Below, piece by piece: positions 51,166 through 55,833 of a stretch of 64,000 nt of DNA. Where the stretch lies: NCBI GenBank assembly GCA_021795965.1, contig JAJYOU010000002.1, forward strand, positions 62,001 through 126,000, in the 5' to 3' direction. Position 1 is the stretch's first letter; every line of letters begins with the position of its first letter. This DNA comes from Chloroflexota bacterium (GTDB lineage: Bacteria > Chloroflexota > Anaerolineae > Anaerolineales > Villigracilaceae). The notes below the pieces were generated by a model. It was not told where the DNA came from and searched no databases. It saw nothing but the letters and a program-made list of their open reading frames with translations. The translations under genes and the position numbers were made by a program.

Positions 51166-52494
51166 ATGGAAAAAGTCAGTAAAAAAATTTCATCTGCAAA
51201 TTTAATCGAGCGTGACCAAAAAGTTGTCACGCCTGCCATTTACCGTTATACCGATGTCGCTTTTGAACGGGGCGAGGGTCTTTTCCTGTACGACTTTGAA
51301 GGCAGGAAGTATTACGATTTTGTCGCCGGTATCGCCACCATGAGCGTTGGGCACAATCATCCACGCGTGGTGTCTGCGATCACGGATCAGGCTGGAAAGC
51401 TCCTGCATGCTGCAGCACACGTCGGGTACATGCAGCCTTATGTCGAGATCCTTGAAAAACTGATCAGCCTGGCGCCCGCCCCGCTCAACCATGGCAAGGG
51501 AGTTCTGGTCAACAGCGGCAGTGAAGCGGTTGAGACCGCGGTCAAACTCGCCCGCGCCGTTTCAGGTCGTTCCATGGTGCTGGCATTTATGGATAGTTTT
51601 CATGGGCGCTCGATGGGAGCGTTATCGCTGACCGCCAGCAGCAGCGGTTATCGCAGGCATCTCAGCCCTCTTCTGAATGGGGTCGAGCATGTGCCGTACC
51701 CGTATTGCTTCCAGTGCCCGTTTGGTCACAAGAATCACACCCGGGAAGACTGCTGCGGTCAGTGGAAAAAATTCATCCAAATGACTCTCGATAAACTCGT
51801 GCACCCGGATGACCTCGCTGCCATCGTCGTCGAACCGATCCTGGGCGAAGGCGGTTACGTCGTGCCTCCGGATGATTTCCTGCAAACCCTGCGCGAGGTC
51901 TGCGACAGGACCGGCGCATACTTGATCGCGGACGAAGTCCAGACTGGCATGGGGCGCACCGGAAAATGGTACGCAGTCGAGCACTGGAACGTCACTCCCG
52001 ATATTATCGCCCTCGGAAAAGCCATTGGCGGTGGATTGCCGCTCGGGGCAGCCATCGCGCGCTCTGAACTGATGGACGCATGGTGGCCAGCCGCGCACGG
52101 CTCCACTTTTGGCGGAAATCCGCTCGCCTGCCGGGCAGGATTGGAAAGCATTGCCATCATCGAGGAGGAAAACCTGCTCGATAACGCGACAAAAGTCGGC
52201 AATTTCATCCAGGCTCGTTTCAAAGCCGCACAAAAAGACATGCCCATCATCGGCGATGTTCGCGGCAAAGGCTTGATGATCGGCGTTGAACTGCTGAACC
52301 GACAGGGCGAGCCGCTCAAGGTGGATCAGGTCAAGCACATCATCAAGGACCTGGGATCCAATGGCGTGGTCATGACCAAATGCGGGCAGAGCACATTGCG
52401 TATTGCCCCGGCATTAACCATCACAGAAACAGTCGCCGACGAAGGTCTCAACATCATCCTGCAGGTATTGAAAGATACCTGGACCAGGTTATAA
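51166..52494 (+). CDS. Class III PLP aminotransferase / amino-acid racemase family
   Basis: The 442-residue enzyme is a class III aminotransferase: GLFLYDFEGRKYYDFVAGIA, VLVNSGSEAVETAVKLAR, DSFHGRSMGALSLTAS, EPILGEGGYVVPPDDFL, IADEVQTGMGRTGKWY, the PLP lysine in IIALGKAIGGGLPLGA (about residue 285), and STFGGNPLACRAGLESI. A Cys-rich insert, PYCFQCPFGHKN...DCCGQ (about residues 184-205), is typical of the archaeal and bacterial group that includes 4-aminobutyrate aminotransferases and broad-range amino-acid racemases or isoleucine epimerases. The substrate cannot be chosen from sequence. GAGG lies upstream of the ATG. It follows livF by 134 bp and precedes the P-protein-like pair. Confidence 0.88.
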   Translation: MEKVSKKISSANLIERDQKVVTPAIYRYTDVAFERGEGLFLYDFEGRKYYDFVAGIATMSVGHNHPRVVSAITDQAGKLLHAAAHVGYMQPYVEILEKLISLAPAPLNHGKGVLVNSGSEAVETAVKLARAVSGRSMVLAFMDSFHGRSMGALSLTASSSGYRRHLSPLLNGVEHVPYPYCFQCPFGHKNHTREDCCGQWKKFIQMTLDKLVHPDDLAAIVVEPILGEGGYVVPPDDFLQTLREVCDRTGAYLIADEVQTGMGRTGKWYAVEHWNVTPDIIALGKAIGGGLPLGAAIARSELMDAWWPAAHGSTFGGNPLACRAGLESIAIIEEENLLDNATKVGNFIQARFKAAQKDMPIIGDVRGKGLMIGVELLNRQGEPLKVDQVKHIIKDLGSNGVVMTKCGQSTLRIAPALTITETVADEGLNIILQVLKDTWTRL

Positions 52495-52593
52495 CAAATC
52501 ATCCATTTCCAACATCTGTCGGGTCAGCTCTTCAATAAATCCGCGCCAGCTTCGCGCTGCAAAATTTCAGGTTAATTTTGCGGGAGGTATTTT

Positions 52594-53991
52594 GTGTCAA
52601 AAGTTCTTGCTTCGACGAACCCGTATATTCCAAATTCCACCACAAGAGCTAAAGAAGAAATGCTCAGGACAATCGGTATCCAGGATATCGACTCCCTTTT
52701 CTCCGCCATTCCCTCCGAACTCAAACTCAACCGGCTCCTAAATTTACCAGAACCGTACCAGTCCGAATATGAACTGCAAAAGCACGTCACAAAAATCCTG
52801 GACAAAAATACGTCCACGAATGAGCGGTTAAGTTTCCTCGGCAGCGGCTGTTACCAGCATTTCGTCCCGGCGGTTTGCGACGAAATTAATTCGCGCAACG
52901 AGTTCCTGACCGCGTATTCGGGAAAAGCCTACGAAGATCACGGACGCTGGCAGGCTCTTTTTGAATACACCAGCCTGATGGCTGAATTATTGAATATGGA
53001 CGTGGTCAACCTGCCCACCTACGATGGCTTGCAGGCTGCGGCTACTGCGATGAGAATGGCAGCGAACATCAGCGGGAGAAAGGAAATCATCCTCGCCAAA
53101 GCCATTCAGCCCGATAAACTCTCAAAAATCATGGAATACAACCGCCATCTACTGACCTTCAAATTCATTAATTTTGACCCCCTGACTGGCGGCATGGATT
53201 TATCGCAATTGGAACAAAGCCTTTCATCCGATACGGCTGCCATCTATTTTGACAATCCAAATTTCTTCGGTGTGATCGAGTCAAATGCAGGGGAAATTTG
53301 CAGCCTGGCACACCAGCATGGGGCGCTCGCCATTGTCGGCGCGGATCCAATCTCGCTCGGCATCCTCAAACCGCCCGCTGACTATGGCGCAGATATTGCC
53401 TGTGGTGATATTCAGTCGCTCGGAATCCATATGCAATTCGGCGGTGGGCACGCAGGTTATATCGCCAGCCGCGATGAGGAAAAATTTGTCAGGGAGTACC
53501 CCAACCGCATCGTCGGGATCCTCCCAACGCGTGAAGAGGGCGAATATGGTTTCGGCGAAGTCGCCTTCCGGCGAACCTCATTCGAGGCGCGCGAAAGCGG
53601 CAAGGAATGGCTCGGCACCATGGCGAACCTCTGGGCAATCACCGCCGGGGTTTACCTCGCCCTGATGGGTCCTCAGGGCATGCAGGAGGTCGGGCAGACG
53701 ATCACAGAACGGGTCAATTATGCCATGCGCGCCCTCTCAAGCATCGACTCCATCTCGCTACAGTTTCCACAAGCCGCACACTTTAGAGAATTTGTGGTGG
53801 ATTTCTCAAGGACTAAAAAGTCCGTGAAGGAAATCAATCGCGACCTGTTGGAGCGTGGTATTTTTGGCGGCTTAGACATCAGCGCCGTCTTTCCTCAATT
53901 TCAAAACCATGCTGTCTACTGCGTGACCGAGGTGCATACCAAAGAGGATATCGATGACCTGGCTCGAAACCTGGCAGAGGTGCTCTCATGA
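52594..53991 (+). CDS. GcvPA-like subunit of a glycine-decarboxylase-type PLP complex (divergent)
   Basis: The 465-residue protein aligns with the alpha half of split glycine decarboxylase (P-protein): NPYIPNSTTRAKEEMLRTIG, IDSLFSAIPSELKLNRLLNL, FLGSGCYQHFVPAV, NEFLTAYSGKAYEDHGRWQA, LFEYTSLMAELLNMDVVN and TYDGLQAAATAMRMA. The region that in canonical GcvPA carries REQHIRREKATSNICTNQ instead reads RRTSFEARESGKEWLGTMAN, then LWAITAGVYLALMG. That loss suggests a changed substrate or partner. The start is GTG after GGGAGGTATTTT. It overlaps the next gene by 4 bp. No gcvT or gcvH is in the window. Glycine cleavage is therefore doubtful; a related amino-acid decarboxylase is possible. Confidence 0.85.
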   Translation: MSKVLASTNPYIPNSTTRAKEEMLRTIGIQDIDSLFSAIPSELKLNRLLNLPEPYQSEYELQKHVTKILDKNTSTNERLSFLGSGCYQHFVPAVCDEINSRNEFLTAYSGKAYEDHGRWQALFEYTSLMAELLNMDVVNLPTYDGLQAAATAMRMAANISGRKEIILAKAIQPDKLSKIMEYNRHLLTFKFINFDPLTGGMDLSQLEQSLSSDTAAIYFDNPNFFGVIESNAGEICSLAHQHGALAIVGADPISLGILKPPADYGADIACGDIQSLGIHMQFGGGHAGYIASRDEEKFVREYPNRIVGILPTREEGEYGFGEVAFRRTSFEARESGKEWLGTMANLWAITAGVYLALMGPQGMQEVGQTITERVNYAMRALSSIDSISLQFPQAAHFREFVVDFSRTKKSVKEINRDLLERGIFGGLDISAVFPQFQNHAVYCVTEVHTKEDIDDLARNLAEVLS

Positions 53992-55541
53992 ACGCGCGGC
54001 ATTATCACCAGGCACGCTGGAATGAACCCATCATCTGTGAAATGGGAAGCAGCGGCGAGAGGGGTGTATTGATTCCGCCTTTCGATGGCGGTGCGGAACC
54101 CTCCTCCGAATCGGGAGCATTTATACCCGAAAATATGCGGCGAACTGCTCCGCCGGACCTGCCGGAAATCTCGCAGGTCGAGGTCCTGCGCCATTACCTG
54201 CGCCTTTCGCAGGAGAACCTCGGGGCAGGTCTCATTCCTGATTTTGGCATGGCAACCTCCACCATGAAGTACAACCCGCCTGTCAACGAACAATTGTCGC
54301 GCAGCGCCAAGTTGACAAATTTGCATCCACTCCAGGATGAGGCGACCACCCAGGGCATCCTGGAAATCATGTACCAGCTCGAACAATTTCTTAAAGAAAT
54401 TTCGGGTATGGATCGCGTCTCGCTCCAGCCCCGGGGCGGATCGCAGGCAATCTATGCCAACCTCGCCATGATTCGCGCCTATCACGCCAAACGCGGCGAA
54501 CTCGAACAGCGGAATGAGATCATCACCACCATTTTCTCGCATCCATCCGACGCTGCCGTGCCAAGTGCGGCTGGTTTCAAGGTCATCACGCTCTATCCTG
54601 AAGCCAGCGGTTATCCGAGCCTTGACCAGCTCAAAGCGGTGGTTTCTGAGCGAACTGCCGGGCTTTGCATCACCAACCCCGATGACACCGGTATTTTCAA
54701 CCCTCACATCCGGGAATTTGTCGATATTGTTCACGCCGCGGGCGGTTTGTGCGCCCATGACCAGGCAAATGCAAACGGGCTGCTCGGGATCGTTCGCTCC
54801 CGCGAATCGGGATTCGATCTTTGCCAGTTTAACCTGCACAAAACATTTTCCACCCCTCACGGCTCAGGCGGGCCTGGCTCGGGTGTCAGCTGCGTCTCAA
54901 GTGCCCTGGCAGATTACCTGCCCAGCCCAACCGTCGAATTCGACGGGGAAAAATACCACCTGGAATACGATCGTCCCGATTCGATTGGCAAGATCGCAAG
55001 TTTCTACGGGGTTGCCGCCAATTTTATCCGCGCCTACGCATGGATTCTGGCACATGGGGCGGAAGGGTTGCGCGAAGTCGCTCAAATTGCAACCCTCAAC
55101 AACAACTACCTGATGACGAAAATCCTGGAAATCAGCGGCGTCAGCGCGCCTTATGCTGCCAAGCAGTTCAGAATTGACCAGACCCGTTACAGCTGGGAAA
55201 AATTAACCCACGAGACGGGTTTGAAAATCACCGATATTTCCAGGCGCTCAGTTGATTTCGCAATGCACTTTTTCTACAGCCATCACCCCTACTGGGTGGA
55301 AGACCCTGCCACCCTGGAACCAACCGAATCCTATTCCCAGCGGGACATCGATGAATTCATTGCCTCATGGACGCAAATTGTAGACGAAGCCTACCATGAT
55401 CCGGAAATCGTCCGCAGCGCGCCGCATCTCGCACCCATCCATCAAATGACTCACCCGGAATACCTGAGCGACCCGGACAAATGGTCTCCAACCTGGAGGG
55501 CTTTTCGCAGGAAATATCCAGGTGGTTTCGGTAATGAATGA
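53988..55541 (+). CDS. GcvPB-like PLP-binding subunit (divergent)
   Basis: The 517-residue protein matches the beta half of split glycine decarboxylase: VLRHYLRLSQENLGAG, MKYNPPVNEQLSR, LHPLQDEATTQGILEIMYQL, and the PLP lysine in FNLHKTFSTPHGSGGPGSG (about residue 284), followed by DRPDSIGKIASFYG. The lysine and Gly-rich loop are intact. Other active-site stretches differ: canonical YPLGSCTMKYNP is DFGMATSTMKYNP here, and the canonical DSAHGTNPASA is FSHPSDAAVPSA. The N-terminus has the usual GcvPB leader with E...GVLIPP. It is about 30 residues longer than typical, mainly at the C-terminus. Together with the GcvPA-like protein it should form a PLP complex of uncertain substrate. Confidence 0.87.
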   Translation: MNARHYHQARWNEPIICEMGSSGERGVLIPPFDGGAEPSSESGAFIPENMRRTAPPDLPEISQVEVLRHYLRLSQENLGAGLIPDFGMATSTMKYNPPVNEQLSRSAKLTNLHPLQDEATTQGILEIMYQLEQFLKEISGMDRVSLQPRGGSQAIYANLAMIRAYHAKRGELEQRNEIITTIFSHPSDAAVPSAAGFKVITLYPEASGYPSLDQLKAVVSERTAGLCITNPDDTGIFNPHIREFVDIVHAAGGLCAHDQANANGLLGIVRSRESGFDLCQFNLHKTFSTPHGSGGPGSGVSCVSSALADYLPSPTVEFDGEKYHLEYDRPDSIGKIASFYGVAANFIRAYAWILAHGAEGLREVAQIATLNNNYLMTKILEISGVSAPYAAKQFRIDQTRYSWEKLTHETGLKITDISRRSVDFAMHFFYSHHPYWVEDPATLEPTESYSQRDIDEFIASWTQIVDEAYHDPEIVRSAPHLAPIHQMTHPEYLSDPDKWSPTWRAFRRKYPGGFGNE

Positions 55542-55576: not shown

Positions 55577-55605
55577 TTGACTTGACTGGTTCGCGGTGGT
55601 ATCCT
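55577..55605 (+). promoter_or_regulatory. Promoter of the attenuator-controlled operon
   Basis: TTGACT (55577-55582) and TATCCT (55600-55605) are separated by 17 bp with a TGG extended -10. The core CGCGGTGGTATCCTA is identical to that of the kal promoter at 43794-43822. A second overlapping TTGACT at 55582 is too close to the -10 box. The predicted transcript start is about 55612. Confidence 0.72.
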
Positions 55606-55614
55606 AAACCAATT

Positions 55615-55749
55615 ATGAATCCGTTGCCTGCCTCCATTTTTACGACTAATTCGACTTTGATTACCAACCGCACCCGTACAGATGCGGGGCGTTGGAGTGC
55701 AGGAACTACTCAGGCTAAAAAAAGAAAAACCTGGCAGGAACCCGTATAA
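55615..55749 (+). CDS. Putative Thr-rich leader peptide (44 residues)
   Basis: An ATG 9 bp after the -10 box opens a 44-codon frame that ends in TAA immediately before the terminator. The predicted peptide has 9 Thr in 44 residues, six of them within TTNSTLITNRTRT (residues 10-22); it also has four Asn and a late KKRK stretch. It has no ribosome binding site and would be read from a nearly leaderless mRNA. The Thr-rich stretch lies over RNA strand A of the attenuator, where a stalled ribosome would act. The layout resembles threonine-operon leaders such as thrL, but it is longer and translation is unproven. Confidence 0.55.
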   Translation: MNPLPASIFTTNSTLITNRTRTDAGRWSAGTTQAKKRKTWQEPV

Positions 55750-55781
55750 CCAACGCCCCGAAGCTTCGGGGCGTTTTTTTT
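55664..55781 (+). promoter_or_regulatory. Transcription attenuator with mutually exclusive hairpins
   Basis: Four RNA segments can pair in alternative ways. A (55664-55680, CCAAC...CCCG) can pair with B. B (CGGGGCGTTGG, 55685-55695) is exactly complementary over 11 nt to C (CCAACGCCCCG, 55750-55760). C also pairs with D (CGGGGCGTT, 55767-55775) in the terminator. A:B plus C:D would terminate; B:C would block the terminator. A ribosome stalled in the Thr-rich part of the leader frame would cover A and favour B:C. A ligand-binding RNA with the same switch is the alternative. Confidence 0.75.
55752..55781 (+). terminator. Terminator hairpin of the attenuator
   Basis: A perfect palindrome spans 55752-55775 (AACGCCCCGAAG paired with CTTCGGGGCGTT), followed by T residues through 55781 (eight in a row from 55774). 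It stands 53 bp before the aminotransferase start codon. Confidence 0.93.
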
Positions 55782-55833
55782 ATGAATCCAAGCTTTTCGA
55801 CCAGATCACGATCCAGGACAGGAGAAATTATTG

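Follow-up and report, generated by a model that had tools for sequence, protein, structure and literature searches.

The window analysed here, 64,000 nucleotides in length, comprises positions 62001-126000 of contig 29 in a 1.94-Mb assembly, 62% complete, of an uncultured Chloroflexota bacterium. The element under study lies between a gcvPB homologue, which ends at 55541, and the genes P0001 and P0002, on the same strand as both. Farther upstream, the interval 51166-55541 holds a class III aminotransferase gene followed by the gcvPA and gcvPB homologues, all on that strand. The element opens with a sigma-70-type promoter (TTGACT-17-TATCCT, 55577-55605, plus strand) that is kept in relatives; its -35 box TTGACT (55577-55582) and -10 box TATCCT (55600-55605) are separated by a 17-nt spacer, with a TG 5' of the -10 box. 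Nine nucleotides past the -10 box, the ATG at 55615 begins a leader peptide gene of 44 codons and a stop (55615-55749, plus strand; codons 55615-55746, stop 55747-55749), which encodes MNPLPASIFTTNSTLITNRTRTDAGRWSAGTTQAKKRKTWQEPV and whose frame is also kept in relatives. Nine of the 44 codons specify Thr, six of them in residues 10-22, and codons 10-22 (55642-55680, plus strand), with six Thr and two Asn and comparable stretches in relatives, form the putative sensor. With the usual distance from -10 box to transcription start, a start codon 7-10 nt past the -10 box leaves about 1-4 nt of RNA ahead of it, and therefore no Shine-Dalgarno sequence fits; in the window the ATG would stand about 3 nt from the predicted start, with no room for a ribosome binding site.

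Within and beyond the frame lie the segments of the proposed switch. Segment A (55664-55680, plus strand) can sequester segment B, through a 9-pair stem of 55669-55678 with 55683-55691 in the minimum-energy fold; in relatives A:B covaries in another register. Segment B, the predicted antiterminator CGGGGCGTTGG (55685-55695, plus strand), is supported by the sequence, by shuffles and by relatives, and its GGGCGTTGG is read as G-R-W in the leader frame. All 11 nucleotides of B are exactly complementary to segment C (55750-55760, plus strand; the same three lines of support), a helix that none of 200 dinucleotide shuffles equalled. C is the left arm of an intrinsic terminator (55752-55781, plus strand), identified from the sequence, a terminator scan and relatives, whose 10-pair C:D stem (55752-55775) is directly followed by a T-run. 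The original prediction, made from the letters of this DNA, had described just this arrangement of promoter, near-leaderless ATG, Thr-rich frame, sequestering segment, antiterminator and terminator, and every part of it is found where it had been placed.

Taken alone, the single sequence is not decisive. Across 2.5 kb, a promoter scan found two promoters where 1.8 were expected and a terminator scan two terminators where 2.9 were expected, both at chance level; the promoter and terminator rise above chance because they are conserved in relatives, and the case therefore rests on those relatives. Folding of the whole leader is stronger than that of its shuffles (z -3.64, equalled by 1 of 200), and with the terminator removed scarcely so (z -1.65, equalled by 12 of 200). 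No Rfam family, including Thr_leader, T-box and other riboswitches, matched the window at gathering score, and with matches admitted to E 10, Thr_leader was not one of the 13 obtained. Weak hits, for example Leu_leader at 25.2 bits against a cut-off of 50, fall on the terminator end of the leader. The stop codon in the window directly abuts C, and a ribosome slow to leave it would hinder the terminator, a point against an attenuator.

P0001 (55834-57138, plus strand) encodes a class I aminotransferase (PF00155) whose best-scoring solved relatives are aspartate aminotransferases. A K (in GITKSLGG) and an R (in WIRFSYAT) align with the K and R of aspartate aminotransferase 1bkg, which we take to be the PLP lysine and the C-terminal arginine, and with both residues P0001 falls within the class I family; the 25 NCBIfam models listed for this protein all stayed below their cut-offs. 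P0002 (57158-60007, plus strand) is an N-terminal carboxylate-amine ligase of the YbdK/GCS2 fold fused to a C-terminal M20 deacylase of the DapE/LysK-like type. Its structure model has a mean pLDDT of 80.2 and a pTM of 0.69; both folds are present, and among the 50 fold matches listed there are only M20-type enzymes and YbdK/GCS2 ligases. A lysine/DAP-pathway role for the trio of ligase, aminotransferase and M20 enzyme was considered and set aside as less likely, since Lys codons are not enriched in the leaders.

Relatives of P0001 (E 1e-60) occur in 89 of the 152 family genomes. Among named genomes, the best 80 of 253 loci come nearly all from Anaerolineales or other Chloroflexota MAGs, with one of the 80 labelled Acidobacteria. 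A set of 88 loci, less two with too short an upstream region (L092, L108), gave 86 upstream regions, and the full layout of TTGAC-17-TANNNT promoter, start, frame and terminator was recovered in 69 of them by a finder that set a minimum frame length of 12 codons. The 69 frames have 23-44 codons, and in all of them the start lies 7-13 nt past the -10 box (8 nt in 44), a regularity that the original prediction did not contain. The 17 misses include five minus-strand loci read in the wrong orientation (L024, L026, L028, L029, L032), three of which repeat L045, L048 and L053, and three regions in which a leader is visible by eye (L068, L095, L110). In nine homologous regions no leader was seen by eye (L025, L066, L078, L082, L087, L098, L099, L105, L106); one of these, L078, has within 190 bases upstream of the aminotransferase gene a promoter and, almost directly next to it, a terminator with the leader missing, an apparent natural loss of the sensor by deletion. 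A strict search for the leaderless-promoter pattern in four genomes yielded 42 hits, a figure in which variable spacing makes some places count twice; among the 30 fetched, the short frames directly before a terminator were, by eye, the aminotransferase leaders.

The leader behaves as a coding frame. It stays open over 23 codons in 69/69 leaders, against 14/69 and 8/69 for the other two frames, the finder itself having set a minimum of 12. In an alignment of 50 leaders (A1), 211 of 212 gaps between the ATG and B are multiples of three, compared with 30 of 190 downstream of B; these are rows with a gap rather than independent events, and a single insertion in L003, for instance, opens a gap in all the other rows. 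Third codon positions are more variable (0.45) than first (0.32) and second (0.34) positions in 39 leaders. The codon phase of B is the same in 47 of 53 leaders and the other 6 use a second one, and therefore the RNA segment and the peptide are conserved separately. The invariant columns of A1 belong to the start codon and to segments B, C and D; Thr and Arg codons take up many of the nearly invariant remainder. Coding-frame selection of the kind expected of a ribosome-mediated attenuator is thus present in these leaders, and the conservation of frame and Thr codons that had been proposed as a check is borne out in relatives.

Codons 2-23 contain on average 5.25 Thr per leader, compared with 1.41 and 0.49 in the other frames and 2.41 in shuffled sequences. 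Asn, which the original prediction did not single out, is enriched as well (3.14, against 0.23 and 0.30 in the other frames and 1.00 shuffled), and Ile (0.90 vs 1.27 shuffled) and Lys (0.25 vs 0.44 shuffled) are not. Four leaders (L045, L067, L091, L093) have a single Thr in this interval. Measured from B in 60 of the 69 leaders, Thr makes up 26-66% of codons 13-42 nt upstream, with the peak of 66% at 19-24 nt and 26-42% in the remaining bins; it falls to 12-22% in the last 12 nt, to 0% of codons starting within the first 12 nt of B, and to at most 5% once B begins. In the window, Thr codons 10, 11, 14, 17 and 20 lie 13-43 nt before B. The placement of Thr and Asn codons 13-42 nt before B fits stalling, in that a ribosome held there would mask A and free B, and the distance from control codons to antiterminator is that of a ribosome-mediated attenuator. 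The Thr/Asn run partly overlaps the A strand (ACCAAY), and RNA pairing may therefore add to the codon bias.

All three helices are recovered in the alignment. Pairing reaches 85.6% in A:B, where both sides have changed in 4 of 9 pairs; 92.4% in B:C, where this holds for one of 9 (GC 32, AU 7, UA 2); and 94.6% in C:D, where it holds for 2 of 10. Percentage paired, the number of cells changed on both sides and the covariation score exceeded all 500 shuffles and the slid versions for each helix, with the proviso that related sequences can exceed such shuffles without structure. By the stricter count of pairs changed on both sides, B:C does no better than shuffles (1 against a mean of 1.0, reached in 474/500), C:D is matched in 126/500, and A:B is surpassed by one of its slid versions (6); one and the same position covaries across B, C and D. 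Leader by leader, A:B reaches the 5% level against shuffles in only 7/69, and B:C misses it in 14/69, with virtually no B:C helix in L044, L083 and L107; a mid-helix B:C mismatch occurs in 17 of 50 leaders. In the genus of the window, inspection by eye places the pairing of A on the 5' half of B (CCCGY with GCGGG) and not on its 3' half. The alignment thus holds a mutually exclusive antiterminator (B:C) and terminator (C:D) followed by a U-run, and the proposed test for covariation in the three helices came out in favour of the ribosome-mediated attenuator, a reading that the comparative results support and that appears largely right.

With a threshold of E 0.01, a covariance model of the leader (R1) matched 93/152 family genomes. 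In 82 genomes the match has E 6.4e-6 or better; 81 of these belong to the 89 that carry P0001, and in 80 of the 81 the match is by eye on the P0001 contig; in the remaining genome outside the 89 (G010) the leader sits at a contig end. From the 25 weak matches (E 5.5e-5 and above), 18 were fetched, and 11 are sister leaders: nine before aspartate kinase, which are Thr-rich and mostly contain Met, one before asnA and one before P0003. The other seven (L206, L208, L209, L210, L218, L220, L221) look like chance terminators and were rejected. P0003 (NF006719) is another aminotransferase, related to AspC; its Thr/Asn leader was found in G054, which lacks P0001. Relatives of P0003 (E 1e-90) occur in 2/152 genomes, both without P0001, and no leader was seen upstream of the second copy, in G055.

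The same device with other codons, unforeseen in the original prediction, stands before aspartate kinase and asnA. Aspartate kinase (TIGR00657, E 1e-40) occurs in 97/152 genomes, and 90 regions (89 distinct, as L405 repeats L245) contain a leader in 70 cases by script and a further 12 by eye. In the first batch of 30, 23 were found by script and three by eye (L231, with its start unsettled, L249 and L251); L232, L239 and L257 are incomplete regions, and L250 stands directly behind a P0002 homologue inside a P0001 operon. The second batch of 60, including the repeat, gave 47 by script, with an internal Met in 42 and no Met in 5, and nine by eye (L353, L371, L377, L387, L389, L399-L402); no leader was found in L347, L385, L397 and L403. 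The leaders of L399-L402 (genus g22) carry Thr/Met codons, with the start farther from the -10 box and a longer 5' leader, and appear to be the same sensor with a more conventional start. The gene asnA is present in 7/152 genomes, and in all seven a frame with 5-9 Asn per 10 residues precedes a terminator; this count was made by eye, the leaderless finder having detected one, and six of the seven have a longer 5' leader. A comparable leader was found at none of the 30 best-scoring thrC loci and none of 30 ilvB control loci, and at 1 of 24 trpE control loci, where it is not Trp-rich; the lack of one at thrC weighs against the attenuator reading. For the aspartate kinase and asnA leaders, the downstream genes serve the amino acid that would be sensed.

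The codon set follows gene content. In the interval 13-48 nt before B, the 23 aspartate kinase leaders contain Thr in 23, Met in 23 and Asn in 2. Where aspartate kinase belongs to the operon, the aminotransferase leaders (n=10) contain Thr in 10, Asn in 9 and Met in 10; the others (n=65, with downstream DNA incompletely covered for some) contain Thr in 64, Asn in 63 and Met in 4. Counted anywhere in the peptide, Met is present in 6/6 leaders with aspartate kinase and in 8/48 with no aspartate kinase within at least 5 kb. Two leaders with Met (L103, L109) resemble those with aspartate kinase, on contigs that end too early to judge the operon. Aspartate kinase stands behind P0001-P0002 on the same strand in L097, L100, L102, L104, L111 and L112 and in G034:C75, G038:C90 and C180, and G041:C115. 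Within the single genus of the latter, aspartate kinase follows both genes, by coordinates, in G034, G038 (two copies) and G041, whose blocks contain Met; in G036 and G037 aspartate kinase lies elsewhere and Met is absent. Met thus seems to join the sensor when aspartate kinase enters the operon (10/10 vs 4/65), a comparison that draws on few lineages rather than independent samples.

We conclude, with a probability of roughly 0.88, that the element is a ribosome-mediated transcription attenuator that would sense charged tRNA-Thr and tRNA-Asn, one of a set serving aspartate-family synthesis. The case is built on the layout, the conservation of frame and codons, covariation, geometry and gene contexts; from these we infer the start site, translation, stalling and amino acid response of the leader. 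RNA polymerase would start a few bases 5' of the leader ATG, and a ribosome would load on the near-leaderless 5' end and trail the polymerase. When charged tRNA-Thr or tRNA-Asn is scarce, the ribosome would stall in the Thr/Asn codons and mask A, and B, 13 or more nucleotides ahead, would stay free to pair with C, so that the terminator is blocked and the aminotransferase and ligase/deacylase genes are transcribed. When both charged tRNAs are plentiful, the ribosome would cover B and prevent B:C, and A:B may form behind it; C would then pair with D, and transcription would stop at 55775-55781. If the attenuator does read Thr and Asn, the best match to such a sensor is an aspartate-forming role for P0001, which we regard as the probable function of this enzyme. 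More broadly, we think it likely that these leaders form a Chloroflexota family of mostly near-leaderless attenuators with a common architecture and a combinatorial codon code for aspartate-family synthesis: Asn for asnA, Thr and Met for aspartate kinase, Thr and Asn for the aminotransferase and ligase-deacylase, and all three where the operon is shared. Such a code, which would include an Asn-codon attenuator, may be readable enough to assign unknown enzymes to pathways.

A ligand-binding riboswitch with an incidental frame would share the alternative and covarying A:B, B:C and C:D pairings, but it would not explain why the frame is kept with gaps in threes, why codon content tracks gene content, or why full invariance in A1 is seen at the start codon and within B, C and D, with many nearly invariant columns in Thr/Arg codons; nor is there an Rfam family at gathering score, and we consider this reading extremely unlikely. 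Structure kept without the frame, which had been named as its sign, was not encountered among leaders from a finder that itself demanded at least 12 codons, and regions without the frame, where inspected, also lack B. A plain terminator without regulation, its frame decayed or due to chance, as might stand at the end of the upstream gcvPAB operon, could be suspected from the position of the element just past gcvPB and from L078, which keeps promoter and terminator without the leader. It is barely credible given that a promoter precedes the element, that the element stays with the aminotransferase while the upstream genes change, that the B:C complement is exact, and that R1 matches 81 of the 89 genomes with P0001.

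The sensor might also respond to a signal other than Thr/Asn charging, such as an antibiotic, an arrest peptide, or t6A37 modification of ANN-reading tRNAs. The t6A modification is made from threonine, and the Thr, Asn and Met codons are all ANN in the genetic code; yet further residues with ANN codons, Ile and Lys, show no enrichment in the aminotransferase leaders, and the codon sets split by gene into Asn runs for asnA, Thr and Met for aspartate kinase (Asn in 2/23) and Thr and Asn for the aminotransferase, so that we hold such a signal to be very unlikely. The element is very probably a working attenuator, with its regulation inferred.

The closest classical counterpart is thrL, the Thr_leader family of Rfam, a classical attenuator with Thr and Ile control codons; thrL and thrA are both present in the E. 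coli annotation. The enterobacterial thrL likewise combines a Thr-codon leader peptide and alternative antiterminator and terminator with aspartate-pathway genes downstream; unlike thrL, the present leaders have a near-leaderless start, Thr with Asn or Met rather than Ile, another first gene, another phylum and no Rfam match. Attenuation has reportedly been surveyed by Lopatovskaya et al. (2010), and Canestrari et al. (2020) are said to have described leaderless poly-cysteine uORFs in mycobacteria. Precedents for leaderless leader peptides are thus known, in those uORFs and in Sinorhizobium meliloti trpL. The trpL RNA has the leader ORF's ATG at its very start and is a product of attenuation (PMC7298713), as proposed here; that leader is of 14 residues and senses Trp, in contrast to the 44 residues and Thr/Asn codons of the window leader in another phylum and before other genes. 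The mycobacterial uORFs, described as translation attenuation in PMC9031893 and PMC13236596, are likewise short and leaderless and repeat the codon that is sensed; they differ from the present leaders, which conserve an intrinsic terminator and antiterminator. The ilvB-II, ilvB-OMG and ilvB RNA motifs contain a uORF and are suggested or shown to be attenuators, with ilvB-OMG and ilvB rich in branched-chain amino acid and Thr codons (PMC10272879); these belong to the branched-chain pathway, and the word "leaderless" is absent from the main text of that paper. In the literature searched, whose coverage leaves many subscription papers outside, we found no report of a Chloroflexota attenuator or of an asparagine-codon attenuator.

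Leader codons of this kind would tell which amino acids each operon serves, and they are seen to differ as genes enter or leave the operon. For the uncharacterised P0001 and P0002 they offer a direct and testable hint to function, and the leaders would provide a naturally occurring case of transcription coupled to translation in the absence of a Shine-Dalgarno sequence. A separate observation concerns a near-identical promoter with GAACARGCGTTCG, reminiscent of a LexA box, which occurs in three genomes (G013:C15:4828, G053:C26:4775 and G136:C1:1068468).
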